Part shown: one piece after another, positions 1,217-55,763 of the stretch
Layout of the letters: each line of letters begins with the position of its first letter
Position numbering within the stretch: the stretch's first letter is position 1
NCBI GenBank assembly: GCA_963930775.1
Contig: OZ005701.1
Span: forward strand, 6,765,669-6,829,668
Direction: 5' to 3'
Source of the DNA: Cliona cf. orientalis
Lineage: Eukaryota; Porifera; Demospongiae; Clionaida; Clionaidae
Length of the DNA stretch: 64,000 nucleotides
Position numbers and translations under genes: made by a program
The notes under the pieces: generated by a model
Database searches by the model: none
Told to the model about the DNA's origin: nothing
The model's input: only the letters and a program-made list of their open reading frames with translations

Positions 1217-2714
1217 CAGGGGCGGCTGAGGGTAGGTCAGTTTGGGGGGGGGGGGGGGGTGCAGTCAGGCATAGTAATGGGCAATATAGCGTAAGCCGCC
1301 ATTTATCGGCATGCAAATTTTCCCGATTTGTAACTCCCGCCAGGAATGACATATGAACTTGGTTCTTGCACTGAAAGGAAGCTCTTGACGTAGGCTTTCA
1401 TTAACTAGAATCCAGTGAGGTAGGCCCTATTAATCAATGAGCTATAAGCGCTAATGTGCAGACATGAAAATACCATTTATTGGCAACCGGTACGTATTAT
1501 CGGCACACCTATTCTTTTCCATAATGGCGAATGCGCCATTTATTGGCACCTTGGCCTTCTCGAGCCTTTTACTGCTGCCTTACTTGCCAGAAAATTATAG
1601 AAAAAATACCCCCAGATACTTCAGGATGTCCTCTCACTATATCTCTCTTCTCATATTGATCGCTTGCATCGTCTTTGAACGGCAGCCGTGAATGTGTTGA
1701 TACTACACGTAAAATCGATACTAGAGCCGTTTCACCCGTATAATAAATTCGTGAAGGACTTGGATGTGTTCTAGGCATCAGCCTCCACCTTAAGAGCAAC
1801 TATGACGGAATAATAATCTTTCTAGCTCTTGCTAGGCCACGGTAAAGACGCCATGAGCTGTTTCTCCCTGTAGACGCCAGATACTTCATCCGATTTTGAT
1901 CAAACTTGGTATAGAGCTTCTTCGCCACGCCTTCTTGCCAGTAATATCATCCTTTTCTTCCTGTTTACTTTCCTTGGTGTGCAATGGCCATTGAAAGTTT
2001 CAGGTCCGTAAACGCATCAGCGATGTCCATATAATCCCGTAAAATACGTCGTAAACTAGATGCCGATGATTGGCACGGGTGGTGCCGATATTACGTGCAT
2101 GCCGATATATGGCGGCTTACGCTACCGTCCATACCGTGATACCGAGGTATTGACTATTAACTGTTAAACCATACAAATACCGTGACACCGTATTTGCCAT
2201 CATAATTTTCTTCCATCCGTAATAAATGAGAGTATAATCTACAAATCGCCCTATAAATTTGTATAATCAGATTCAAAAAGTACCGATGTTGTAGCCATTA
2301 ATGCTTGATTATCAAATTTTAGCGTATACATTACCATATATATTCCACATACTGTGGATACCGTGATACCGCAATATTTTCTGTACAACATACCATCAGC
2401 TACTATTTCCAATACCGCCCAATGCTAGTCAGGCACCCACAAATTTTATAACAAATGTCATATATTTAGTACAGTTTGGTATACAGAGCTTGTAGCTAGC
2501 TAGTTAAGGTCCACCTTCATGGCTATTACATTAGAATTTTAATTCAGCGAACTTGAATTGATGATAGTAGGTTAGTTGCCAGAAATACATACATCATAAT
2601 AATAATGTAGGTCTAACGGTTACTATAGCCATCCACTTTGGGTGAGGGGGGGGTAGCAAGGCCCACTGATCTTAACTTTGGGAGGGCGACTGCCCCCCTG
2701 TTCCGCCTCCCCTG
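1217..2714. mobile_element. 1.5-kb non-autonomous TIR element, 5-bp target duplication
   Basis: The element opens CAGGGGCGGC and closes with the matching imperfect inverse ending CCGCCTCCCCTG. TATAG is duplicated at 1212-1216 and 2715-2719. The paralogue at about 24,285 is the empty site. Small reading frames inside (1464-1691, 1569-1799) show no recognisable protein. It contains another element (1288-2123) and a G run at 1244-1259. Confidence 0.7.
1288..2123. mobile_element. TIR element nested in the 1217-2714 element
   Basis: A 28-bp near-perfect terminal inverted repeat starting AGCGTAAGCCGCCAT is found at 1288-1315 and in inverse at 2096-2123. Interior motifs about 'cattTATTGGCA' repeat several times. 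No coding capacity is recognised. Confidence 0.65.
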
Positions 2715-3020
2715 TATAGCCAGGACGGGGAAATAACTATGCAATTTGCTGGGCTCAGTAAAGCCCTACTAATAATATGAAGCTGACACTCCATTCGTTA
2801 ACAAGGTCATGACCTCTGTAATTACTATTGACACAAGTCCTTAAAGGTCCACAGGATTAAAAATTAATGCCCTAAAACCTCTCAAAAACAACAAAATTTT
2901 GCATTCCCTCATTAACTTGTGTCAAACCCTTAGTGATGGCAGTCCGACTAAGTTCTTGAAAATTATGAAGCCTTCGACCACGGACTTCTATACACTCAAA
3001 TTTCTAGGTAGGAGGCCCAG

Positions 3021-3134
3021 TAGTCTAGCGAGCTAAACCCTCTCTCGCTCGCCGCTTAGTGGGTGTGGTTGCTCGCGCTTTCAAAACCACACCCACTAAG
3101 CGGCGAGCGAGAGAGGGTTTAGCTCGCTAGACTA
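3021..3134. mobile_element. Perfect palindromic hairpin element (TAGTCT family), 9-bp target duplication
   Basis: Two perfectly complementary 50-nt arms (3021-3070 and 3085-3134) flank a 14-nt loop. GAGGCCCAG occurs at 3012-3020 and again at 3135-3143. In the paralogous copy near 24,680 the hairpin is absent. It shares TAG[TC]CT termini and 9-bp target duplications with elements at 23401-23517, 62366-62441 and others. The 9-bp duplication is typical of Mutator-like elements, but the assignment is inference. Confidence 0.9.
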
Positions 3135-4019
3135 GAGGCCCAGGGGCTTGTACCGGGTGCATGTATTTATATATGAGACCAGCTAAAGTATAGCTAGTCT
3201 TGATGCCATACTGCTCCCTGCTGAGCCTCCATGGTATTTAGCACAGTATCACTGCACAACTGGGAGTGGTCTCAAGGGGGCATCTATGCGGGAGGTCGAG
3301 TCTAGTCATATTATCTTAGAACCACTAATGCAGCTATCAATGTATTGCCCCACCTACCACCCCACTGGCAAAAGGTGGGGATTTGATCGTATTTGACCAA
3401 TAAACATGCCCCGGATCAGGGGGGTTTGATCAATATTTATGGATAGCAGGGGGAAATATACAGTCCGAATGGGGGGATTTGATCCAAGCATTCGCTCCAG
3501 GGGAGAGGCAATTGATTTCACATAGGTCAAATCCCCAACCCTGGTGGTACCTGGGCCAATACATTGATAGGTGCATAACTTTTGGATTTATGATTGTAAA
3601 ACAGTAGCACAGGCCAGTAATTTTTATATTATCCATCATCCGGCAGATTCTAGCCTGAGATCTGCGCCAGATCTCATACTCCGAGTCGAACTCAGTGTAT
3701 GCACAAGGCTGCCAGGCAGACCCGTCATCGTAAAAATACATAATATTATAGCGTAAAATTAATTTATAATAATTTAGCACCTTGCAATGTAGGCCTTTTC
3801 CTTTCTTTAGGAATAGAATCCGTGTAGGAACGTATCTAATACTGTCGATCCACCGCGATCACAAAAACTCGATCTCTTTCATTCTCTTCGCTCGCGATCG
3901 CCTGCATGTTTAATCAACCGCAGGCATGCAATAATAACGGCCCTAGTACGCATGCGCAGTTTCGCTAAAATTAACAGAAACAATTCTGAATCAGTATATT
4001 ATGTTTGTCGGATGAGTAC

Positions 4020-5337: not shown

Positions 5338-8300
5338 TTATTTGTTATCCAATTCAGCAGTTAGGGTTTGTAGTCCTAACAAAGGTGATTTTAGAGCAGA
5401 AATTAAATCCTCCCAAGCTGGTTCACGACTAATTCTTAGCCACTCGGAGATCATTTCCTGGAAGCAGTCGTTAATAGACTGAGGGTGGTCCCTACTTATA
5501 GCTTCCAGTGTGTCTGGTGGAATCCCAAGCTCGATTCCCAGGCTTCGCCACTCGTTTCTTCCTTCCCAAGTGGCACGCAGGATATAAACGAGATGGTTAA
5601 TGTTGAGGGTACCTGCAATGTTATAGTTTTTTCATTCATAATGAAGTGGCTTTGCTATAAGTCGGTATCATACATGGTAGCTATACCAGCTACCTAAGCA
5701 CGGACCTGAATCCTTTAAAATGTGTAGATTGTCCAATGATGTAGTTACTGTACTATCACATGGTATCTGTTGAGTTTGGAATGAATAATAATGATTACTA
5801 TTGTGACACAAGGAAGAGAGAGTGCAAGAGATCGAGAGGCTCGAGGGGGAGAGGGTACCTTTCCTGTTTCTGTTTTGAGTTTGATAGCCAGAGCCTGCAG
5901 CCCCACTATAGGTGATCTCAGTGCCGAAATCATATCCTCCCACATTGGTCTACAGCCACTCTTTAACCACTCGGAGAGCATTTCAACAAAGCAGTCGTCA
6001 ACAGATTGTGGATATCTTTTGCTTATCGCTTTCAGAGTGTCTGGTGAAAGTTTGAGCTCAAGCCCCAAGTTTCTCCATTCTATTCTACCTTCCCAAATAG
6101 CTTGCCGGACTTGATCGAGATGATTAATACTGAGGACATCTGAAAGATCGTTAGCATAATAATATATTATATCAGGCAGTTACTGGGCAGTGTATTATTG
6201 TGTACAGACCTGAAGTATTTGAAGGACATGACTGACCTACTATTATCCCAGTAGTGCCATCATCATGGGATTCCTGTAATGATAAAGTTAAGAAATACAA
6301 TTACACAATAATTTGCTATAATTTTATATATAGTGAAAGGAGGAGGAGTACATCACTCAATAACTTTCTAATTGCTGAGGGTTGTGGGTAATCATAGGGT
6401 ATAGGTCAATGTTAAAAGAGCAGTGAAATAGCTATAAAAGAGGTTCAATTCCTGTTCTTACCTCTTTCCCATCAAACCAAACAAGTTGATTGTGATCTGA
6501 TAAATCAATTTCACTCTCATCTTTAAGACACTGTGCATAAGGAGGTTGATCTTTCTCCTCAACAATCTTCATCAAATGACCACTGTGTCCCTTCTTGGAG
6601 CATGGAAAAGCCATGAAAAATGGCGGCTTTTCTGGTTCAGAAGCGAAAATGCTTAGTTTGTACTTCATCTCCATGATTACGTTGTTCAACATGTGTACAA
6701 TTTGCTCTCTAACAATTGGACACATTTCTGTGATTGTCATAGCTTTTCTGCGTGTGATTCTACATTGCCCGAGTTGGATTTCAAGATGTTGCGGTTGTGA
6801 AACTAGTACGACATCAAAGCGTCCATCAACAAGGAAGACCACCCGATTTTTTCTTATCGGAAGATCTTTGCGTAATTTCCATGGAAGCGCGAGTGTGTCT
6901 TGGCTACTTATGAAGCGGGCTACTACGAAACAGAATACACCGTACGGCACAAAGCCACAGTCAAAGTGTATCATGATCGAGTAAAAGTGCTGGTATGAAC
7001 TATCTGATGTAAGGTCATTCTCTGAAGCATTTTTTAGCACAGCTGGTATGATAAACTTAGTAGATTCGCCTGACTGTTCAGGTTGTACTTCTGCCAAGAT
7101 ACCAAGATACTTAAGTAGATCAATCAGCTGTTTTGGAGTTAGGTGGGATTTTCTTTTCTTTTGGGTTGTAGTGTCAATATGTTTCAGGGTAAAGAATCCT
7201 TTGGATTCAAACTCATTTCGGACTGACCGTGGAATTGCTCGATTTGTAACGCCAAACGTATCGATAACAAGCTCACTAATGCTATCAAAGATGACTTGAG
7301 GATCGCATATCACCACATCTTTCACTGATTCAACTTCAGGATAATGCATTAGACTACCAATATTGTGGTGAAAGAATTGTATAGCATCCTCAACCGGAGT
7401 GGGCATTTCAAGACGACTGGCTAATGCTCGACAAAGACTAAGACTCACTACTGGTTTGCCCACAAGAATCAGGAGGATCCGAAACATAAGCCAGGATGGG
7501 GGAACTTCGGTTTGCAAGAAAGAACTTCGTATGATATCCTCGATCGTCTTACGAATGCTGTCAATGTCGTCATTGCCATCCATGTTGTCAATCGTGAAGA
7601 ATTTGCGTTTTCTATCTGCTTCCAACAGCAGATCCTCCTGCATGCTTGAAAGTGTTTTCCATAGGGTAGCTTCCACCTCTTTACAGCGACTCTCCAGTGT
7701 ATGTGGACATTTGAATTGGTCCTTGAAGGTACCAAACAAGAGTGCTCTACTCTTGACCTCACTGCACGATTCTACCGATCGTGTGGATTCAAAGCAAGAA
7801 ATACTCGAAACTAGCTGACACAGGACATCTTCGATGCAGTATGAAGATTCCGGAACTACCTCTTCGACACTGTTAGCAGCTAAAAATCGCACTGGGTAAA
7901 GCTTACAAATCTCTTGATCCATTCTGAAGAAAAGGAAATAAAGAGCCGATCCAGTGGTAAATGCAGGGAGCATCTCCACAAATCCAGGCTGTCCCCCCAC
8001 GTCCATCATATTTATCATGATGAGTTTCTCCAGCAGCATCTGAAATTCTCTTGGACTATCTGACTCGAGGATAGAAGACAATTCTTCTATTGCAGCTTTT
8101 ACTGCTTTCAATTCTGAGGCAGTAAGTGCACTATGATTGGAATCTAGATCTGATGTAAGTACAGCATCTTGGGCTATACTCAATGTGGAAACTGCTGTGG
8201 AGATTTGCTCTGCTGGTGTGGCTGGTGGAATTGGCTGAGGTGTGGCAGTTAATGGTGCTTGTGGTGGCAAGTCTGCAGCTGGAAAAGGAGTAGCTTCTTC

Positions 8301-11300
8301 ATCATCTGGTATTCTCAATCTGGTCCGATCTTCATCTGAGATAGTTGTAGTAGTTTTCGATATTATATGGAAGAAAAGGTGAGCAAGATAGGTGTGGTCA
8401 AATTCTCCATCTTTAAGTACAAGTTTCTTATCTCCTGTCTTCTTGAGTGATTCCCATATTGAGGGTGTTTCTTCAGACCCAACGATGGCAGCTGGAACAC
8501 TTTTGAACGGCTTGATGATGACATCTCTGCATTCAGCTACACCGGTGCTCCTTGAAATTCCCCCTAGCTGCTGAAGGTTGATGATTTCTCCAATCAAACG
8601 ACGAAATGTGGACGATTTTCCCGATCGTGGTAGACCAAAAGCTATAAATTTGAGGTAGGTCATTTTCAGCCGCATTTCACTGCTTAGAGCCAGCTCATAT
8701 GCTTCTTGTGCTTTTAGCTTTTTTAGCACTGTATATGCATCAAAAATGTTTGTAGCTAAATCAGCATGCATAAAAATAAAAGACGGTATAGTAGAAATCA
8801 AAAAGTTTACATAGCATAAGGCCACTCCAAATAGATTTCCTGTTTCCCGTCCACCGCCCGCATCCTTTTCTGGCATGTCACAAAATTTTCCATTATTAGT
8901 ACTTTTGTATGTATGCAATATCCGCATTTACTTTTGTACACGTAGTGTTCTTGCCTCAAGTGAGTGATAATTAATTAGTTTAAGTGTTTCCTGTAGGCCT
9001 TGCTACTATAATATAAATAATGGGATTTACCGCCCGCCCGCATATTACATTAGTTGTTTCCAGGAAATTTATTTGGAGTGGCCTAATCATAGTATGCAAC
9101 CACCACGCAGGATAGCTATGGCCAAACCCTACGCAATAGGTACACCACAAGTACCCAAGTACCCACGCAACAAGCAGCTAATTAAATTGTACTTAATTTT
9201 GACTCCTACTGTAGCTCTGAACATATGTAGTCTCTGAAAATTTTAAGCAGGACAAGAATATACAGATAAAGTTTGCAATCACGCAATACCTTTGTCAAAT
9301 TTGCCTTTAAGGTCACGAGCAACTATTGGCAGTTTCGTTTTCCGAAGCAACTGCGTGATGATGTGAAGTGTAACAACACGCAGATGGTACACAGACTGCC
9401 ACACATCCATAATCTCCTTGCTTTTGTAAGCAGAGAACACTGTATGCAAGGCTTGATATTCCACAGGCGTTAGAAGACAGTGTTCAGCTACAAATAAATG
9501 ATAACGTGTAAAAGTACATTCAGGGTAGCTATAGAGTGCACACCTTCATGAGGTTTTGATGAATATTTCTTTATAGCTTCAACTTTCTCATTTGTTGTCT
9601 GGAATATTAAAATCACAGAAAGCATGCAATATCTTCACGTACAATAGCTACATTCCAGATGTATTAAATACCGTAAGAACTATACATACCATATTTTCCC
9701 AAGAAGTAAAGACTTCTTGTTCGATTTCCTTAATTTCAATCTATTGAAAGAAAATTACGATTATCACTTACATGCTCTAGAAGAGTATACCTAATTATTT
9801 CGTACTAGTATATCCTGATTTTATTGTCTATAGCTACATGTTGCAATTGTTAGCTTATCACTATTATAAAAATGTACCCTTTTCAGTTTTGTTGCCTGAT
9901 CAACTGCATCTTCTATCATACCTTGCACCACATTGAGAAAACCAACCTATATAAGAAAGCAGTAGGCTAAGCTGGTGATTATGGTTTACAGTAACAGAGA
10001 TTGGGTAAATCTGCAAGTACTTACAAGATGAAGTACACTAGCCATAATTTTCAGCGGTATAATGATAATATTATTATTATTATACTGTATATAATAGTGT
10101 CTTGGATAAGTGCCACGCGATTTTGGCCTGCATGCATGAGCACTTACTCAGGATATAAATTGTATAGAAGCTGCATGCTAAATCGATTCCATATGTCACT
10201 GAGTACTAGATTATGACTGTATGATAGTCAAGCTGTCATAATCTAGTAGTTTGGAATCCATTCATCCATTTAGTACAACTAAATTATTAGCTAGGTCAAA
10301 ACTCCCTATTATAGTACATCATGATGTACCTCAAGATTCAACGCTTTAACAGAACCAAGAACTGGTAATAATATCCACTGTTTCTCTGGCCTCAATTCTG
10401 GAAAATTAATAACAACATCGTATCAGATAATAATTACTGTTAGTATTAGCAGCATACCAAATTTTAGAACTATAGTTCCAGGCAGCAGAAGGTGCTCTGC
10501 TTCACTTCTGATAAATTCAAGGTCAAGACATCCTCCAAAGATTGTAACTTCAATGAGAGAGGGATTTCTTTGGATGGCTGTTGCTGAGTGACCAAAACGC
10601 TCTTCTACTGCTACACCACATTCTGGTATAGTGACCTGCAATGGTAGTAAGATGTGAACCATTTGTAATTGCATGCGCAAATCAGCAGATCTAGATCTAG
10701 ATAGCTATAGCTATATACATAGTGTCCTGGGTATAAGCGCCCATGGACGCTTAAATATAACTCACAATTTCGGCCTGCATGGGTGCTTAGTACCTGGGAT
10801 CAAAATTCCATACATTTGTATAGAAGCTGCTACAGTGGCCCCTTGAAATGCGGTACAAGGGCAATTACCCGGGAGTGGGCGCTTGCCCAGGACACTACAG
10901 TATATAAAAGCGCTATTAACATACACACAAAAAAATGATTAACCTGTTCCCATACACCCTAAGGGTAGCTATTGATGTATACCTTTCTCCACGTTTGAGA
11001 TGAGAAATCAAATATCCACGCATCTCCAATTGTTTCATCATATGGATCAATTCCACCTATTATCAGTAATTGTGGATTATCACTTCCGAAGCCTAGACAG
11101 CAAGCTGCATGTGCATCCCTCCCAGCGGGCCATGGCTGTCCTTTCTTTCTTTTCAGCTCACTCACAGTCTGAAATAATATATTATTTATTGATCTTTACA
11201 CTTAACAATAATTTTGTGTAGGTCAGTGATATAATAATATTATTATTATGGTGAACCTGACATACTGCTGTCAATGAGAAGCAATAGCACTGAGGACATA

Positions 11301-12651
11301 AAAATGCAACTTATAAGGCACCTAACCAAAGCAGCAAAGCCATACAGACTCACTGACTCCCAACCAGCAAAGTGCATACACTGTGGCTGTGGTAACCACA
11401 AAAATTTAATTGCATTGCTACAGTACTCAATAGCATTGCACATCTGCCATGGTCACTGTATACACAAAGAAGCCAAGCTATTCCCCATGATTGCCGTGGG
11501 TTGCATATTCTTTTATAACCGAGACGAACACACATACACGAACAAAAAAATATAGTACTAACCCTGATGCATGCATGCACCAAAAGTAAAAGGAGTCTAT
11601 TAAAAGTTATCTAAGCAACAAACATACTTACCATTGTACTAAAATCAATCAGGTAAAGATTATCAACTCTTCTGCCAGCTACATTTCCTCCAAAAACAAG
11701 AGCTCTGTGATCATCAATTGCAGTGAACGAAAAGTAGGAACTATGAGGAAGGGAAATCCCTTTCATTAAAGGGAAGGACCAGTCACCTAAATAGGTATAA
11801 TAGAGAATTACATTAAATTTTCAATCATAATTCTGATTGTTACTAGAGCACAGCCAGTTGTGTGCATGCATGCACATGGCATGCAGTATGGGCATACTCA
11901 TCAGGAGTGCCAATAAACTAAAAAATTTAATGCTATAACTATTAATGGCTCAGAGCAAAATTTATACTGTTAATGACACAGGGCAAAATTTATACTAATC
12001 AAATTTCAACAGATTCGTTATGCATACAGATACCTAGACATTGTCGTTTCTCCACCCATTCTAGCTACGTAGCTATACTTCCATGCCCACAATATAAGGC
12101 ACAAGGCAATTCTGTTTACCTGTAAGAATGTCAAAGACATGCAACTCATTGGTAATATGCCATTTTCTTCCAATAGATACAATCCTTGATGACTGTTCAG
12201 GAGTTGAGATAAGATTTTCATGTGTCTGGCCACCGTATAGAGCAATTTTGGTCTTATGGAACACCACCATTTGACATCCTGCTTTCCTTAGAGGTTTATC
12301 GTCACCTCCAGGTGACAATCTCAACAATTCCAGTTTAGTAGATGTGGTGTTAAGCTTATAGAGGTGATCACAAACTTTCCATCCTATAATATTATATCCG
12401 CCATAGAAATAGATATCTCCAGATTGTAATGCACAACACGAACCACGAGTGTGCCCCAATATTAAACCTGAAGGTGATACTTCAATAGGTTGTTTAATCC
12501 ATATCTTCATCTCTTGGTCAAAGACTTCAATGAATGATGGAGGTTCAAGATCATGCCTTGGACGGGTTCCACCATACATGTAGCACTTCTTGCCAACTGA
12601 GGCAATACAATGGTGAATCCTTGACTTTGGCTCGTATGAAGCAGCTGACAT
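5338..12651 (-). CDS. Kelch-ROC-COR-like-Death-Death protein, copy 1
   Basis: Fourteen exons, all with GT-AG borders and matching phases: 12651-12120, 11786-11632, 11168-10983, 10635-10458, 10397-10330, 9946-9878, 9740-9690, 9598-9544, 9487-9290, 8755-6462, 6273-6210, 6139-5859, 5766-5706, 5612-5338. They splice to 1,488 residues. Residues about 1-370 hold six Kelch GG motifs (YMYGG, YFYGG, ALYGG, LVFGG, LIIGG, TIFGG), giving a six-bladed propeller. About 370-500 is helical. The 2.3-kb exon carries a P-loop GLPRSGKSS (about 538), a switch-like RSTGV, a G3 motif DVGGQ (about 750) and GTFKD as G4 (about 840). It continues with a COR-like region (PPSWLMFRILLILVGK; LTPKQLIDLLKYLGIL). Death domains lie at about 1285-1375 (EWRNLGLELKLS) and 1398-1488. 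The start MSAASYEP follows an acceptor shortly upstream, so a 5' noncoding exon is likely. AATAAA overlaps the stop codon. Predicted role: a cytosolic GTPase switch for Death-domain signalling. The function is inferred. Confidence 0.88.
8820..9083. mobile_element. PIF/Harbinger-like MITE in intron 9 of Kelch-ROCO copy 1
   Basis: Inverted ends GGCCACTCCAAAT flank 264 bp. TAA is duplicated at 8817-8819 and 9084-9086. Kelch-ROCO copy 2 has the empty site (one TAA) at about 17,627-17,635. GG-type ends with a TAA target duplication fit the PIF/Harbinger superfamily. The element creates a spurious N-terminal extension of the frame that runs into the GTPase exon. Confidence 0.85.
10720..10897. mobile_element. 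TAGTGTCC MITE in a Kelch-ROCO intron
   Basis: It opens TAGTGTCCTGGG and closes with the inverse. The terminal TA may be the target duplication, as in Tc1/mariner-type MITEs. Relatives are at 52945-53104 and 59583-59739, with decayed copies near 10,090-10,170 and 18,785-18,935. All share an interior of the form GGGCGCTTAAATATAACTC. Confidence 0.75.
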
Positions 12652-14143
12652 CTAGACCTGAATGATAACTTTAGTGCAACACTATGTATCTTGACTGAGC
12701 TAGATATTTCGTAAGCTAGGATACCTCGTATTGCAATTGCACTAAACTCCGAAGAGTCAGGGAGCACCCCTAGTTTATAATAATAGCGTACCAGGTATAC
12801 GTATACATAGGCACATGGGACAGTAACAGTATTATGCTTTCAGTAATAGACTGATTATCCCATGGGACATGGTAAGACTATTGGTATAATGAGATTGTTT
12901 TGAGATTGTTTTACACATAGCACTAGCTAAATGAAAAGTGAATCTTCATTCACAAAATCCCGTGACAAACAGCCAATATTTTCGGTGTGGGTGCAAATTT
13001 AGGAAGACTGCATTTAGCAGTTATAGCTACATTAATTTCTTGACAATAGTATTACGTATTAGGCTCCAGTTGTAGACTGACCTTTGAGAAATTCGTGCAT
13101 TGGGCTATAGCTAGATATAGAACTTCTCATTTAGTTATTGTGAAGTCCCAAGCTTAAGTAAGTACCCATATGCATGCAGGGGTAAAACTGCTTGCTCTTT
13201 TGACTTGTATGCATGGGTGTTTGTCTGGGATAGCTAGAAACCATATATATAGCTACAGGATTTAACTGGCATTGATCAGATATGTTTCTTACTCTACCCC
13301 ACAGACAGTTGCAACAAGCATTTCAGAAAATTTGAAACTAAAGGCATTTCCTATCCTCAACTGTGCCTGAGATTCCATTTTTACTTTTTGCATTCACCTA
13401 TTGCTTGTTTCCCTATACTATAGGAGGAATTCACCAGCTTGTGCACGTAACTGGTGGAGTTCCACGATATCTTGTAGAGTATTGTAGGATGGGAAAGCAT
13501 TATATCTCATGCCAGAAGAATTATCCCGTCAGTTTGATGATGTCTTATTGAAGTTGTTGCCAGAAAAAGTGTGTGAACTGGCACCTGGTCATTCAGTTGT
13601 TGATTTGCTGTTAATCAATAAACAGTCAAAGATATGGAGGTTTACTTTATACAAGTATCGTTTTCAGCATAGATTAAGTGCGGAGTGAGAAGATCTCAAA
13701 GCCAATAATCGAATCGCAAACAAATCCATGGCCGCTCACTATCAGGAATTCCTGAAGTACAAGAAGAGGTACTTTGCCTATACAACTACCGAATTTGAGC
13801 GTAAAGATGATTGTGTGTACTTTATGGATTTTAGGGGACAATAAGTATAACTTATGCAAACTGTGAACAAAATGTATAACATTATACTATTACAGTACAA
13901 GAAGCTAAATATTAATATAATGTGGATCATTGTTGCTGCAGCTGGCCATGCCACTAAGTTCCTGTGGAATTCCAAACAAGCAGCGCACCAGTGTTAAATA
14001 TAACTAGCTTTTTCGGCTTGCATGCACGGGTGTCCATCCAAGATAAAAATCAAAAGTTACATATTTAATTCTCAGTATAGTGGAGTTGACCCCTTGATAT
14101 TATTTGCATAATTATTATTGGGTGCTTGATTGAATGTATAAAT
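12652..14143. other. Spacer between the two Kelch-ROCO genes
   Basis: 12,652-12,920 is the 5' flank of copy 1 and matches 22,640-22,905 of copy 2 (shared GAGTCAGGGA..CACCCCTAG and TATTGGTATAATGAGATTG blocks), so promoter elements probably lie here, though no TATA box is convincing. 13,985-14,143 is the 3' flank of copy 2, matching copy 1. Between them lies the relic at 13424-13844. Confidence 0.6.
13424..13844 (+). pseudogene. Broken plus-strand coding remnant, family unrecognised
   Basis: After an AG acceptor-like site, one frame reads VHVTGGVPRYLVEY. A TGGVPR-type motif occurs in some STAND/AAA-type ATPases, so this is only a hint. The next frame reads MPEELSRQFDDVLLKLL from 13509 for 59 codons to a TGA at 13686-13688. 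It then continues in the same frame (SMAAHYQEFLKYKKRYFAY) to TAA at 13842-13844. A frameshift near 13,490 and one internal stop indicate decay. The composition is protein-like (charged, amphipathic). Alternatively it is a short genuine gene of about 59 residues. Confidence 0.4.
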
Positions 14144-17100
14144 TTATTTATTTTCCAACTCAGCAGTTAGGGTTTGTAGTCCAACTAAAGGTGATTTTAG
14201 AGCAGAAATTAAATCCTCCCAAGTTGGTTCACAACTATTTCTTAGCCACTCGGAGATCATTTCCAGGAAGCAGTCGTTAATAGACTGAGGGTGGTCTCTA
14301 CTTATAGCTTCCAGTGTGTCTGGTGGAATCCCAAGCTCGATTCCTATGCTTCGCCACTCGTTTCTCCCTTCCCAAGTGGCACGCAGAATATAAACGAGAT
14401 GGTTGATGTTGAGGGTACCTGCAATGTTAGCATTAATTTTCATATAATATAATGAAGTGGCTTTGCTATAATTATTATGGTAGCTATACTAGCTACCTAA
14501 GCACAGACCTGAATCCTTTAAAATGTGTAGATTGTCCGATGATGTAGTACTGTCACATGGTATCTATTGAGTTTGGATTAAGTTTGAAACCAATGAATTT
14601 TATGACACAAAATGATCAATGACTAATAATATTATTGTGACACAAGGAAGAGAGAGTGTAAGAGATCGAGAGGGGGAGAGGGTACCTTTCCTGTTTCTTT
14701 TTCGAGTTTGATAGCCAGAGCCTGCAGCCCCACTATAGGTGATCTGAGTGCCCAAATCATATCCTCCCATGTTGGTCTACAGCCGCTCTTTAACCACTCG
14801 GAGAGCATTTCAACAAAGCAGTTGTCAACGGATTGAGGATATTTTTTGCTTATCGCTTTCAGAGTGTCATGTGAAAGTTTGAGCTCAAGCCCCAAGTTTC
14901 TCCATTCTATTCTTCCTTTCCAAATGGCTTGCCGGACTTGATCGAGATGATCAATATAATTGAGGACATCTGAAAGATCATTAGCAAATATCAGGCAGTT
15001 ACTAAGCAGTGTAATGTGTACAGACCTGAAATATTTGAAGGGCATAACTGACCCATTATTATCCCAGCAGTGCCATCGTCATGGGGTTCCTGCAATGATA
15101 AAGTTTAGAAATACAACTAGCTACACACAATTTCAAAGGAGCTAGGAGGGAGTACATCACTCAATAACTTTCTAATTTCCGAGGGTTGTAGGTAATCATG
15201 GGGTATAGGCCAATGTTGAAAGAGACCAGTGAAATAGCTGTAAGAGGTTCAATTCCTAATTCTTACCTCTTTTCCATCAAACCAAACAAGTTGATTGTGA
15301 TCTGATAGATCAATTTCACTCTCATCTTTAAGACACTGTGCATAAAGAGGTTGACCTTCCTCCTCAATGATCTTCATTAAATGACCACTGTGGCCCTTCT
15401 TGGAGCATGGAAAAGCCATAAAAAATGGCAGCTTTTCTGGTTCAGAAGCGAAAATGCTTAGTTTGTACTTCATCTCCATAATCACGTTGTTCAACGTCTG
15501 TACAATTTGCTCTCGAACGATTGGACACATTTCTGTGATTGTCATAACTTTTCTGCGTGTGTTTCTACATTGCCCAAGTTGGATTTCAAGATATTGCGGT
15601 TGTGAAACTAGTATGACATCAAAGCGTCCATCAATAAGGAAGACCACCCGATTTTTTCTTATCGGAAGATCTTTGCGTAATTTCCACGGAAGTGTGAGTG
15701 TGTCTTGGCTACTTATGAAGCGGGCTACTACAAAACAGAATACACCGTACGGCACAAAGCCACAGTCAAAGTGTATCACGATCGAGTAAAAGTGCTGGTA
15801 TGAACTATCCGATGTAAGGTCATTCTCTGAAGCATTTTTTAGCACAGCTGGTATGATAAACTTAGTAGATTCATCTGACTGTTCAGGTTGTACTTCTGCC
15901 AAGATACCAAGATGCTTAAGTAGATCGACCAGCTGTTTTGGAGTTAGGTGGGATTTTCTTTTCTTTTGGGTTGTAGTCTCAATATGTTTCAGGGTAAAGA
16001 ATCCTTTGCATTCAAACTCCTTTCGGACTGACCGTGGAATTGCTCGATTTGTAACGCCAAACGTATCGATAACAAGCTCACTAATGCTATCAAAGATGAC
16101 TTGAGGATCGCATATGACCACATCTTTCACTGATTCCACTTCAGGATAATGCATTAGACTACCAATACTGTGGTGAAAGAATTGTATAGCATCTTCCACC
16201 GGAGTGGGCATTTCAAGACGACTGGCTAATGCTCGACATAGACCAAGACTCACTACTGGTTTGCCCACAAGAATCAGGAGGATCCGAAACATAAGCCAGG
16301 ATGGGGGAACTTCGGTTTGCGAGAAAGAACTTCGTATGATGTCCTCGATCGTCTTACGAATGCTGTCAATGTCATCATTGCCATCCATGTTGTCAATCAT
16401 GAAGAATTTGCGTTTTCTGTCTGCTTCCAACAGCAGATCCTCCTGCATGCTTGAAAGTGTTTTCCATAGGGTAGCTTCCACCTCTTCACAGCGACTCTCC
16501 AGTGTATGCGGACATTTGAATTGGTCCTTGAAGGTACCAAACAAGAGTGCTCTACTCTTGACCTCACTGCACGATTCTCCTGATCGTGCGGATTCAAAGC
16601 AAGAAATGCTCGAAACTAGCTGACACAGGACATCTTCGATGCAGTATGAAGATTCCAGAACTACCTCTTCGAAACTGTTAGCAGCTAAAAATCGCACTGG
16701 GTAAAGCTTACGAATCTCTTGATCCATTCTGAAGAAAAGGAAATAAAGAGCCGATCCAGTGGTAAATGCAGGGAGCATCTCTACAAATCCAGGCTGTCCC
16801 CCCACGTCCATCATATTTATCATGATGAGTTTCTCCAGCAGCATCTGAAATTCTCTTGGACTATCTGACTCGAGGATAGAAGATAATTCTTCAATTGCAA
16901 CTTGTACTGCTTTCAATTCTGATGCAGTAGGTGCATTATGATTGGAATCTCCACGTACAAGAGCTGATGTAGGTACAGCATCTTGGGCTATACTCAATGT
17001 GGAAACTGCTGTGGAGACTTGCTCTGCTGGTGTGGCTGGTGGAATTGGCTGAGGTGTAGCAGTTAATGGTGCTTGTGGTGGCAAGTCTGCAGCTGGAAAA

Positions 17101-20100
17101 AGAGCAGCTTCTTCATCATCTGCTATTCTCAATCTATTCGGATCTTCATCTGAGATAGTTGTAGTAGTTTTCGATATTATATGAAAGAAAAGGTGAGCAA
17201 GATAGGTGTGGTCAAATTCTCCGTCTTTAAGTACAAGTTTCTTATCTCCTGTCTTCTTGAGTGATTCCCATATTGAGGGTGTTTCTTCAGACCCAATGAT
17301 GGCAGCTGGAACACTTTCGAATGGCTTGATGATGACATCTCTGCATTCAGCTACACCGGTGCTCCTTGAAATTCCCCCTAGCTGCTGAAGATTGACGATT
17401 TCTCCAATCAAACGACGAAATGTGGACGATTTTCCTGATCGTGGTAGACCAAAAGCTATAAATTTGAGGTAGGTCATTTTCAGCCGCATTTCACTGCTTA
17501 GAGCCAGCTCATATGCTTCTTGTGCTTTTAGCTTTTTTAGCACTGTATATGCATCAAAAATGTTTGTAGCTAAATCAGCATGCATAAAAATAAAAGATGG
17601 TACAGTAGAAATCAAAAGTTTACATAGCATAATCATAGTATGCAACCACCACGCAGGATAGTTATGGCCAAACCCTACGCAATAGGTACACCACAAGTAC
17701 CCACGCAACAAGCAGCTAATTGCACTGTACATGGCTGTGTAGCTAGCTACATAACTGACAAGTGGTTTACACTAGCAGGAGGACTTGTCCGCCCCACAGT
17801 GTCACACAAAACCGTGCTAATCAAGAAGTATGTATACAACTGTTCTACAGTGTTAGTACGCTGCACATAGGCTCCCTACCTATGTATGCAATACACTATA
17901 ATAGACTCCTACTGTAGCTCTGAACATAATTATGTAGTCTCTGAAAATTTTAAGCAGGACAAGAATATACAGATACAGTTTGCAATCACGCAATACCTTT
18001 GTCAAATTTGCCTTTAAGGTCACGAGCAACTATTGTCAGTTTCGTTTTCCGAAGCAACTGCGTGATGATGTGAAGTGTAACAACACGCAAATGGTACACA
18101 GACTGCCACACATCCATAATATCCTTGCTTTTGTAAGCAGAGAACACTGTGTGCAAGGCTCGATATTCCACAGGCGTTAGAAGACAGTGTTCAGCTACAA
18201 ATAAATGATAACGTGTAACAGTATATTCAGGGTAGCTATAGAGTGCACACCTTCATGAGGTTTTGACGAGTATTTCTTTATAGCTTCGACTTTCTCATTT
18301 GTTGTCTAGAATATTAAAATCACAGAAAGCATGCAATATCTTCATATACAATAGCTACATTCCAGATGCATTCAATACCGTAAGAATTATACATACCATA
18401 TTTTCCCAAGAAGTAAAGACTTCTTGTTCGATTTCTTTAATTTCAATCTATTGAAAGAAAATTACGATTATCACTTGCATGCTCTAGAAGTATACCTAAT
18501 TATTTCGTACTGAGTATATCCTGATTTTATTGTGTATAGCTACATGTTGCAATTGTTAGCTTATCACTATTATAAAAATGTACCCTTTTCAGTTTTGTTG
18601 CCTGATCAACTGCATCTTCTATCATACCTTGCACCACATTGAGAAAACCAACCTATAATAATATTATAAGAAAGCAGTAGCTGGCAATTATGGTTTACAG
18701 TAACAGAGATTGGCTAAATCTGCAACTACTTAATACAAGATGAAGTACACTAGCCATAATTTCAGGTGGTATAATAATATTGTTATACAGTATAGTGTCT
18801 TGAATAAGTGCCATAACATAGTTTGCGATTTTGGCCTTGCATGCATGAGATACATTCGTATAGAAGCTGCTAAATTGATCCCATATTATTATTATTATTA
18901 TTAATATGCATGGGCGCTTGCCCAGGACACCACCAATCACTGAGTGCTAGAGAGTCATGCTGTTTATTAATAGGTCAAAATTGCCTATAGTGCATTATGA
19001 TGTACCTCAAGATTCAATGCTTTAACAGAACCAAGAACTGGTAATAATATCCACTGTTTTTCTGGTCTCAATTCTGGAAAATAAACAGACAATTAATTTA
19101 GTTCACATCTTAAATCTTAGCGTGCATATATATAATATATTATAGCCAGTATACCAAATTTTAGAACTATAGTTCCAGGTAGCAGAAGGTACTCTGCTTC
19201 AGTTCTGATAAACTCAAGGTCAAGACATCCTCCAAAGATTGTAACTTCAATGAGAGAGGGATTTCTTTGGATGGCTGTCGCTGAGTGACCAAAACGCTCT
19301 TCTACTGCAACACCACATTCTGGTATAGCAACCTGCAATGGTCATAAGAGGTGAACCACTATGCCAAATCAACAGATCTAGATCTAGATAGGTAAAACCT
19401 GGACTCTGGACTCTGGATTGGACTCATGGACTGGACTGTGGACTGAGATTTGGACTCCATTTTGGACTGATGCACAGTTCAATGACGACCATTTCCAACA
19501 ATAAACTGCCAGAGACTTCGAATAGAAGAGCTGCTTGTAAGCATGTAGAGGTAGAGCTGATTATTTCCCTCGGAAAATTGGTGAGGGGTGCATCTCCTCA
19601 GGACGTTGGGCATCACGTTGATACTCGGATGCAGAGAAAGGTCAAAGAAGTCTCATTCCCAGCCCCCTTTCAAGCACGCGGGCATGGGGACGAGACATAA
19701 TTTTACAACTGAGGGATTAGGCCAAAGTAGCCTCGAACGCAGGCTGATTTTCAAGGAGGAGACGAGTTTGAGGCTAAGACCACGCTAGATACTTCCTACA
19801 TGCAGATCTTTAAAATCTACTCTGACTTATCCCGAGTCTCCACATAACTTGAGCGTGAGGATATAGTGCTATCAGTCTTATTGTCCCCTTAGCCTCCGTA
19901 GGCATCTCGGTGATATTGAAGTCCATTCCTGTGAGGAGATGCTATCCCAGGCTCACCGATTTTCCAAGCGAAATGTTCACCCGAGTCTACTTCTAGCTAC
20001 ATGCTTACAAGTAGCCTCCAGGCCAGCTCCTTGTGACTTCCTGAAAAGCCTGGGTACGTACATACGTACGAGGCTAGGCTAACTTGTGACTAGCTTGCAG

Positions 20101-22639
20101 TTGTAGTACCTTCTATCCGCTGTCTCTTGGAAATGGTCATCATTGAACTGAGCATCAGTACAAAATCGAGTCCAAATCTCAGTCCATAGTCCAGTCCATG
20201 AGTCCAGTCCAGAGTCCAGGTTTTACACTTAACTAGCTACATACAGGGGTGTTCCCAGGATTAGAAGAAGGAGGGAGGTGCTAAGAAATTTGCGCGCAAA
20301 ACATGTGTAAAATTTTTAGCCACACATCCAAAATTTTGATCATAGCTACCCCTACTGAATTAAATCCATCCTTGAAGGTAGCTGGCTGATAAAGACAGCT
20401 GTTTTACGTCAAGTAGCAACGAGAAAATGCTATTTAGGGAGCGAATTTAGAACCCAGTAAGTATATATTATTGTTGGTAGTAGCTACCAGTCATCGATTA
20501 TCAGTAATAATATTTATCACTGTGAGCTACTGAGCTGGCTGTTGTGCCAGAGCTGATGGGGGTGCTCCAGCACCCTGAGCACCCACCCTGGGTACGCCGC
20601 TGACATAATTAATTAGTAAGTGAGATATTATACAATACACGCACAAAATGATTACCCTGTGCCAATACTAGTCTCGTTTTCAGCCCCCTTTCACACGTGC
20701 GGAGAGAAGGGGCCTGGCAAAACATGTATAGGGCCAGTGTCGCCCGTGCAGCCTATAATGCGCACCAATCAGATGCATGGAATAAAGTCACATGACTGTG
20801 CGGGCATGAAAGGAATGCAAATTGACGACTGTGTGTGTGCGCAATCATACCCAAATGGAATGTTACTTTATTTGCGTTTCTTATTCACATACACCAGAAA
20901 TACGTGATGTCATGCATTCCTTGGCGATACAGACCCTATACATGTTTGGCCAGACCCCTTCCCTCCACATGCATGAAAGGGGCTCAGTGGGGACGACTGA
21001 GACTAGCTACACCATAAGGATATTGATGTATACCATTCTCCATGTTTGAGATGAGAAATCAAATATCCACGCATCTCCAATTGTTTCGTCATATGGATCA
21101 ATTCCACCTATTATCAGCAATTGTGGGTTGTCACTTCCGAAGCCTAGACAGCAAACTGCATGTGCATCCCTCCCAGTGGGCCACGGCTGTCCTTCCTTTC
21201 TTTTCAGCTCACTCACAGTCTGAAATAATACATTAACACTGAGTAATAATTATTATTATGGTGAACCTGACATAGTAGTACTGGCATCAATGAGAAGCAA
21301 TAGCACTGAGAAGGACATAAAAGTGCAATTTCCTCCACAGGTATATACCTATTAACCAAAGCACTTAAAAGCCATCACTGAGTCAGACCAACCAACTTAA
21401 TCAGCAAAGTGCATACAACGTGGCTGTGACAACCACAAAAATTTAATTGAATTGCTACAGTACTCAATAGTATTGCACATCTGCCATGGTATAATACAAA
21501 TGTAGACACCAAGCTATTCTCCATGATGGCCATGGGTTGCATATTCTTTTATAACTGAGACAAACACATAAAAAATACAGTACTAACTCAGATGCATTCA
21601 CCAAAAGTAAAATGAGTCCATTAAAACAAACATACTTACAATAACAACAACCATACTTACCATTATATTAAAGTCAATCAGGTAAAGATTATCAACTCTT
21701 CTGCCAGCTACATTTCCTCCAAAAACAAGAGCTCTGTGATCATCAATTGCAGTAAACGAACAGTAGGAACTATGAGGAAGGGAGATCCCTTTCATTAAAG
21801 GGAAGGACCAGTCACCTAAATGGGTATAATAGAGAATTACATTTCAATCATAATTCTGAATATTACTATAGCTCGAGCTCTAGAGCACAGCCAGCTGCAT
21901 GCACATGGCATGCAGTACATACTTGCCAATAAATTAGTGCCATAGGGGAAAGTTTATACTAAAGCCAACTTTTTTAATCAAATTTCAGCAGATTCGTTAT
22001 GCATACAGATATCTAAATGTTGTCGTTTCTCCATCCATTCTATATACTATAATAGCTACGTATATACTGCACTTCCATGCCCACAATGTAAGGTACAGGT
22101 CTATTCTGTTTACCTGTGAGAGTGTCAAAGACATGCAACTCATTGGTAATTTGCCAGTTTCTTCCAATAGACACAGTCCTCGATAACTGTTCAGGAGTTG
22201 AGATAAGATTTTCATGTGTCTGGCCACCGTATAGAGCAATTTTGGTCTTATGAAACACCACCATTTGACATCCCGCTTTCCTTACAGGTTTATCGTCACC
22301 TCCAGGTGACAATCTCAACAAGTCCAGTTGAGTAGATGTGGTGTTAAGCTTATAGAGGTGATCGCAAGGTTGCCTTCCTATAAATCCTCCATAGAAGTAG
22401 ATATCTCCTGATTGTAATGCACAACACGAACCACGAGTGTGCCTTAGCATTAAATCTGAAGGTGAGATTTCAATAGGTTGTTTAATCCATGTCTTCATCT
22501 CTTGGTCAAAGATTTCAATGAATGATGGAGGCTCGAGATCACGCCTTGGACAGCTTCCGCCATACATGTAGCTCTTCTTGCCAACCGAGGCAATACAATG
22601 GTGAATCCTTGACTTTGGCTCGTATGAAGCAGCTGACAT
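14144..22639 (-). CDS. Kelch-ROC-COR-like-Death-Death protein, copy 2
   Basis: Tandem paralogue of the gene at 5338-12651 with every exon border conserved: 22639-22114, 21815-21661, 21219-21034, 19332-19155, 19073-19006, 18652-18584, 18447-18397, 18305-18251, 18194-17997, 17569-15267, 15089-15026, 14969-14686, 14563-14509, 14418-14144. They also splice to 1,488 residues. The six Kelch motifs, GLPRSGKSS, DVGGQ, GTFKD and both Death domains are intact. Small in-frame differences (two residues fewer in Kelch exon 1, three more in the Pro-rich insert of the GTPase, one more and two fewer around the Death domains) cancel in length. Differences fall mostly in the linker and insert rather than in motifs. 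Two elements unique to this copy (19392-20226, 20669-21005) sit between exons 3 and 4. No frameshift or stop is seen, so both copies look functional. Confidence 0.88.
19392..20226. mobile_element. Foldback element in Kelch-ROCO copy 2
   Basis: The left end GTAAAACCTGGACTC followed by repeated TGGACT words is mirrored at the right end. The inverted similarity extends inward for about 300 bp on each side, including CTTGTAAGCATGTAG and GGAAAAT[TC]GGTGAG. Copy 1 has no insertion at the equivalent point (about 10,703). I could not define a target duplication. No coding capacity is recognised. Confidence 0.75.
20669..21005. mobile_element. TAGTCTC-ended inverted-repeat element
   Basis: Termini TAGTCTC.. 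are inverted, with longer matching blocks inside (AGCCCC, CATGTATAGGG). The equivalent position in copy 1 (about 10,950-10,970) has no insertion. The termini match the 9-bp-target-duplication hairpin family, but here the target duplication is degraded. Confidence 0.65.

Positions 22640-26760: not shown

Positions 26761-55763
<29,003 letters not shown>

Follow-up and report, generated by a model that had tools for sequence, protein, structure and literature searches.

The window analysed here, the 64-kb stretch C13:6765669–6829668 of the 217-Mb, 149-contig genome of Cliona cf. orientalis, contains a tandem pair of genes, A (12651..5338) and B (22639..14144), both on the minus strand and of 14 exons each, predicted to join a Kelch propeller, a ROC-COR GTPase and two Death domains. 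Rebuilding the exon chains reproduced the 1,488-residue products of the original prediction with the same lengths and ends, with GT-AG at every junction and no internal stop; the two chains are identical at 1381 of 1492 aligned positions (93 %). Within these chains one splice site was misplaced by 27 nt: the predicted exon 10 acceptor (tgatttag/, 8755 in A and 17569 in B) is missing from a third copy of the gene at C13:6716k, and an alternative AG 27 nt downstream (atacag/TG, 8728/17542) occupies the homologous position, in phase 1, in paralogues. From 21 sequences called up for this comparison, four had no motif match; of the 17 compared, 16 (A, B, the third copy and another 13 paralogues) have a phase-1 AG at the position homologous to the GTPase exon start, the 17th (L042) having an AG of uncertain phase there. 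As the old acceptor is absent in the third copy whilst the new one is homologous and in phase, we moved the start of exon 10 to 8728/17542, and the resulting 1,479 residues are the better model for both chains (Table 1). The domain order is unaffected by this choice. An alternative donor at 6236 would make exon 11 of gene A 27 nt shorter.

Table 1. Predicted exons of genes A and B, in window coordinates
Gene and exon	Content	Position	Strand	Evidence
A, exon 1	Start codon, first three Kelch motifs	12120..12651	-	Chain rebuild and Pfam
A, exon 2	Kelch	11632..11786	-	Chain rebuild
A, exon 3	Kelch	10983..11168	-	Chain rebuild; junctions match C3 and C7 Kelch
A, exon 4	Kelch	10458..10635	-	Chain rebuild; compared with C3/C7 Kelch
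A, exon 5	Propeller end	10330..10397	-	Chain rebuild
A, exon 6	Linker with in-frame ATG	9878..9946	-	Chain rebuild; splice sites kept in third copy
A, exon 7	Linker	9690..9740	-	Chain rebuild and third copy
A, exon 8	Linker	9544..9598	-	Chain rebuild and third copy
A, exon 9	Helical module common to other ROCO paralogues	9290..9487	-	Paralogue comparison
A, exon 10	Roc-COR GTPase, start corrected from 8755	6462..8728	-	Pfam, acceptor comparison, fold
A, exon 11	Linker	6210..6273	-	Chain rebuild
A, exon 12	Death domain 1	5859..6139	-	21.8 bits (cut-off 22.6)
A, exon 13	Linker	5706..5766	-	Chain rebuild
A, exon 14	Death domain 2 and stop	5338..5612	-	20.4 bits (cut-off 22.6)
B, exon 1	Start codon, Kelch	22114..22639	-	Chain rebuild
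B, exon 2	Kelch	21661..21815	-	Chain rebuild
B, exon 3	Kelch	21034..21219	-	Chain rebuild
B, exon 4	Kelch	19155..19332	-	Chain rebuild
B, exon 5	Propeller end	19006..19073	-	Chain rebuild
B, exon 6	Linker	18584..18652	-	Chain rebuild
B, exon 7	Linker	18397..18447	-	Chain rebuild
B, exon 8	Linker	18251..18305	-	Chain rebuild
B, exon 9	Helical module	17997..18194	-	Chain rebuild and paralogue comparison
B, exon 10	Roc-COR GTPase, start corrected from 17569	15267..17542	-	Pfam, acceptor comparison
B, exon 11	Linker	15026..15089	-	Chain rebuild
B, exon 12	Death domain 1	14686..14969	-	22.0 bits (cut-off 22.6)
B, exon 13	Linker	14509..14563	-	Chain rebuild
B, exon 14	Death domain 2 and stop	14144..14418	-	18.8 bits (cut-off 22.6)

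Kelch and Death were identified by sequence profile, and Roc-COR by its fold and GTPase motifs. On full chain A, Kelch (PF24681) scored 127 bits (cut-off 50) and Death 30.6 bits (cut-off 22.6), both above the Pfam cut-off, and no kinase, ankyrin or NACHT NTPase was found among the Pfam families at E ≤ 0.1. The closest solved relative of the propeller (residues 8–340) was KLHDC2 (E 4.5e-14), with six hydrophobic-GG Kelch motifs counted from sequence, and that of the Death region was FADD (E 0.025). Roc is followed directly by COR, as in Roco proteins, with Death C-terminal to both, as in the DAPK1 group. In an alignment of 72 homologous rows, the window's own included, the P-loop (G1) is present in 72/72, DxGGQ (G3) in 70/72 and xTxKD in 71/72. 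Structural comparison of the predicted model (Foldseek) supported the Roc-COR fold, with LRRK1/LRRK2 and prokaryotic Roco as relatives; a first model, made from five sequences, was useless (pLDDT 43) and was set aside. A PDB sequence search with P0001 returned no Roco, and a 72-row profile searched against PDB gave LRRK2 rows that were weak (E 0.74–0.82) and ranked below unrelated rows.

The order claimed originally (Kelch, GTPase/COR, Death, Death) is thus supported by Pfam, and for GTPase/COR also by fold, whilst some of the scores weigh against it. Roc reached 12 bits by Pfam and COR-A 31.3 bits on full chain A (31–33 bits on the A and B chains), below its cut-off of 35.3; single Death exons scored 18.8–22.0 bits, again below cut-off; and the Foldseek TM-scores were low (0.25–0.39 by query). 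In the genome search, the COR-A places of the pair scored 36.4 and 36.7 bits (cut-off 35.3). The weak Roc score, together with a long low-confidence insert between G1 and G3 in the predicted Roc-COR model and a G4 that reads GTFKD and not the consensus NKxD, could be taken to mean that Roc is a nucleotide-dead scaffold and the protein a passive adaptor. We regard this as distinctly improbable, as the conserved P-loop, DxGGQ and xTxKD motifs would argue for nucleotide binding.

Genes A and B are under purifying selection. The ratio of non-synonymous to synonymous substitution (dN/dS) between them is 0.30 overall and 0.27–0.44 in the propeller, helical module, Roc, COR and both Death domains, such that the whole chain is apparently used; given this ratio and the lack of stops, we consider it unlikely that they are pseudogenes. 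Eight of the 13 introns are 68–85 % identical between A and B and one has no match, whilst introns 6–9 are 88–97 % identical in aligned pieces (17450–18652 versus 8640–9946), probably reflecting a recent gene-conversion tract. Because of this identity, comparing A with B is of little use for exons 6–9, for which the third copy is the better control.

That Kelch to Death forms one chain is suggested by comparison, using the third copy, the exons of paralogues and the local alternation of Kelch and GTPase exons. The third copy (C13:6715600–6726200), 90 % identical to A, has AG at 12/12 acceptors (exons 3–14; that of exon 2 lay beyond the stretches read) and GT at 13/13 donors (exons 1–13). Its exons 2–14, when joined, are open for 1,300 residues up to the final stop, and the frame holds across the junctions even though intron 5 is 3.4 kb in this copy. 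Exon 9 is a helical module homologous to the exon that precedes the GTPase exon in paralogues: that of A matches C8:8021k, C4:8485k and C4:8515k (E 1.9e-5 to 2.3e-4), and with the C2 and C8 versions as queries the matches rise to seven places on C2, C4 and C8. Alignment z-scores are 12.5 (C8) and 9.3 (C2), with 0 of 2000 shuffles reaching such scores, and the AAAG/GT junction after exon 9 is common to A and the C8/C2 paralogues; the profile of this module was built from C2, C4 and C8 rows, and recovers these by construction. In the C2:9357k paralogue (L040), ankyrin frames (29.3 and 25.5 bits; cut-off 21.1) lie upstream, where the pair has Kelch. As exon 9 precedes the GTPase exon in paralogues, one of them with ankyrin upstream, exons 9 and 10 travel together whilst the N-terminal sensor varies. 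On C13, moreover, first exons of Kelch and GTPase copies, five of each, alternate (5/5), two of these GTPase copies looking broken.

Further evidence comes from homologues on other contigs. Six of 24 Kelch-exon homologues sit on contigs identical in size to those of listed GTPase-exon homologues, of 1317765 bases (P0123, P0125 and P0132 with P0007), 644161 bases (P0138 and P0139 with P0013) and 357979 bases (P0143 with P0019), which is strong but indirect evidence that contigs of equal size are the same contig. The remaining 18 lie on contigs without a size match to a listed ROC homologue (120 of 263 ROC matches being listed), mostly of <9 kb, with one (P0141) on 352912 bases.

Several observations count against a single chain. 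Two further C13 copies appear broken; the 1317765-base contig carries a 92 %-identical ROC and may be from the same species; and exon 6 contains an in-frame ATG, from which a separate downstream gene could start between exons 5 and 9. The weak point of the predicted chain is the joint between exon 5 and exons 6–8, where phase and open frame are the only evidence, and which is testable by the third copy only, as A and B are near-identical there, introns included. Conservation of the Kelch introns was rejected as proof of fusion: introns 1–4 of C13, C3 and C7 agree in place and phase, but since kinase-linked Kelch units on C6 keep the same exon 3 junctions, this marks the Kelch family and not the fusion. 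The locus might hold two co-duplicated neighbours, a Kelch gene (exons 1–5 or 1–9) and a ROCO-Death gene, possibly functioning as partners; in A, B and L040, read-through at the exon 9 donor runs into a stop within four codons, which would fit this, as would the exon 6 ATG and the Kelch blocks that adjoin kinases as well. We nevertheless think two genes unlikely, given that the phase-1 AG in 16 of 17 sequences is as expected of an internal exon, that exon 9 goes before the GTPase exon in paralogues, including one with a different N-terminus, and that the frame is open through the junctions of three copies, one with the long intron 5.

On balance, we think it somewhat probable that each gene specifies one protein of ∼1,479 residues (Kelch propeller, short linker, helical module, Roc-COR, Death, Death) that acts as a trigger-sensing GTP switch with a death-fold output. 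The propeller would bind a trigger, be it a ligand from microbes or damage or the end of a host protein; binding would shift Roc-COR between GDP and GTP states; and this shift would expose the tandem Death domains, which would then seed a death-fold assembly, recruiting adaptors and driving apoptosis or NF-kB-type signalling. The single transcript, ligand, nucleotide switching, Death assembly, cell compartment and immune role are in each case what we infer, and the proposed flow from sensor to switch to Death is drawn by analogy from Roco and Death-domain biology (PMC6320773, PMC6337361). With the same chain, the propeller might instead bind host proteins (e.g. C-terminal degrons), and the protein regulate host cell death in the manner of DAPK1 without being a pathogen sensor. 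KLHDC2, the closest solved relative of the propeller, binds C-terminal degrons. The ROC-COR-Death core, furthermore, is shared with the DAPK1 group (PMC6320773, PMC6337361). The tandem expansion and decay of copies and the swapping of modules, however, look more like a receptor repertoire, and we hold this host-directed role to be rather less than probable.

Comparable modules are widespread in the genome. For the GTPase exon there are 70 matches, a number of which are fragments of a single copy, and the COR-A profile has 150 scored places among 290 candidates, all listed but the last three being at or above the cut-off; these are six-frame places, broken copies included, and hence not a unit comparable to annotated genes, for which the largest published ROCO count that we encountered is 47, in a brown alga (PMC11378527). 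On the minus strand of C7 (3.90–4.11 Mb), the order Death, COR-A, Kelch is repeated six times, with six places for each of the three, two of these units having been read, in part. A Kelch block on C3 is followed within 8 kb by ROC-COR (21.5 bits) and by a pair of Death matches below threshold (19.2 and 13.9 bits), and at C7 1.1 Mb one Kelch block precedes ROC-COR (42 bits) and the adjacent one a protein kinase (89 bits). Outside C13, Kelch matches best in an array at C6 5.82–6.10 Mb and at C8:4127k; in the one C6 unit read, Kelch is followed by what by eye appears to be a coiled coil and then by a protein kinase (122 bits). The blocks on C3, C7 and C6 are adjacent predicted modules, which may belong to one gene or to several. 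The helical-module profile found no match in L042–L044, suggesting that the C3/C7 units may lack this module. Ankyrin lies upstream in one of the two non-Kelch paralogue loci read, L040, the other being L041 on C8.

At L041, a 353-aa frame (2634–3692), in which the IRF DNA-binding domain scores 95.7 bits and the IRF-3 domain 42.8 bits, lies 3 kb upstream of the ROCO exon, as either a neighbour or part of a fusion. Between Kelch and ROC-COR at C7 1.1 Mb, a frame (L058:4651–5607) has a sub-threshold ZU5 match (13.9 bits), and a similar-looking frame at L058:9135–9497 has no Pfam match; short segments that look alike by eye, also with no Pfam match, flank the C3 Kelch-ROCO unit (L042:303–485 and 8150–8530). 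A scan of genome contigs returned one relative among 114 stretches, a Pseudomonadales metagenome-assembled contig (L045) on which an atp operon lies next to a ROCO exon 42 % like that of the window; this assembly is probably chimeric. An ENA contig carries a 1,631-aa open frame (P0005), a possible NLR-ROCO chimera, in which NACHT scores 51.8 bits whilst LRR, Roc and COR-A match below threshold.

The clade groups used in tree tests were named before the trees were made, yet after the identity table. In the ROC tree (19 of 31 prepared rows, with long-branch warnings), the C13 copies group with ROCOs of the C2/C8/C4 type, one of them known with ankyrin (84/90, 13 rows); the C3 unit joins these further out (100/100) and the C7 3.9-Mb unit falls outside. 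A C13+C3+C7 clade is rejected by the approximately unbiased test (p-AU 2.9e-10; 5.6e-5 with the C7 1.1-Mb row), which speaks against a single ancestral Kelch-ROCO gene, subject to the same long-branch warnings. The Kelch tree (14 rows; C6_5823 was left out as it lacked full exons, and C7b had no exon 3) places C13 with C8:4127k (81/81), whose partner is unread, and also with the kinase-linked C6 propellers (85/85, not strong), whilst C3 and C7 form their own clade (100/100). Here a C13+C3+C7 clade is not rejected (p-AU 0.077), but is rejected with the C7 1.1-Mb row (7e-4). From the placements of C13, C3 and C7 in both trees, it is likely but not proven that Kelch and ROCO were joined at least twice.

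Elsewhere in the window, a bromodomain (27378–27761, minus, 37.6 bits) and a WSD motif (22.8 bits, below the 25.4 cut-off) in a 1,112-aa frame (38451–41786, minus) may be exons of a BAZ2-like chromatin gene spanning 27378–41786 (minus). Between the two sit three related frames of 175–177 aa with several hydrophobic stretches by eye (28151–28684, 29958–30491 and 33190–33717, minus), the first of which has no Pfam match. Rfam gave nothing in the 64-kb window at the gathering threshold.

Kelch, Roc-COR and Death were not found together in one protein in the portions of the open-access literature covered, closed journals and general protein databases being outside this scope. To that extent the three-part combination seems new, although Kelch with Roc-COR is not new in itself, as a Roco review already lists Kelch beside WD40 as propeller repeats flanking Roc-COR in the kinase-bearing Roco group (PMC6320773). 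The DAPK1 group (kinase-ANK-ROC-COR-Death; PMC6320773, PMC6337361) resembles the pair in having ROC-COR and then a C-terminal Death domain, with ankyrin frames in front in the L040 paralogue, but the pair has no N-terminal kinase or ankyrin, and has a Kelch propeller and two Death domains instead. Since this group shares the core, and ankyrin frames lie upstream in one paralogue from the same genome, the claim of a new class is too strong; the pair seems to be a new architecture of a known kind, a ROCO with Death that is DAPK1-like without the kinase. LRRK1/LRRK2 and prokaryotic Roco (Roco2, C. tepidum Roco) share the Roc-COR fold, but the pair lacks LRR and kinase and has C-terminal Death and the long G1–G3 insert. 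Among invertebrates, proteins that fuse ROC-COR to signalling domains of the TIR or death-fold type are described in cnidarians, as NG1 (LRR-GTPase-COR-TIR) and NG3 (kinase, Death and TIR with ROC/COR; PMC5094078), and in Aplysia, as ROCO-bearing TLR and MyD88-like proteins (PMC9334734); their domain order differs, and the word Kelch is absent from both texts. The AP-GTPase/COR conflict systems likewise join a GTPase-COR switch to repeat sensors and death/effector modules, but the sensors described for them are LRR, and the text mentions 'kelch' 0 times (PMC8195603). KLHDC2-type propellers also have six Kelch motifs, here joined by the gene model to a GTPase in one chain, and the pair differs from NLRs (NACHT-LRR) in having no NACHT match.

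The modular repertoire around the pair is more interesting than the pair itself, and this modularity, with Kelch also before kinases and ROCO also after ankyrin, is the wider finding. We tentatively suggest, short of calling it probable, that this lineage runs a combinatorial receptor repertoire parallel to NLRs, in which exon shuffling and tandem duplication have repeatedly recombined a GTP-driven ROCO switch with Death output, and likewise a kinase output, with interchangeable sensors (Kelch, ankyrin). Kelch-ROCO-Death would then have originated independently on more than one occasion, and ROCO genes would have expanded to at least a hundred. Death-fold immune receptors are usually regarded as switched by STAND NTPases. 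If true, a large ROCO-switched animal repertoire would reveal what the ROC-COR module of LRRK2 and DAPK1 is capable of as an immune switch, and would provide a natural series, with the same switch but different sensors and outputs, for testing how ROC-COR couples ligand to output.

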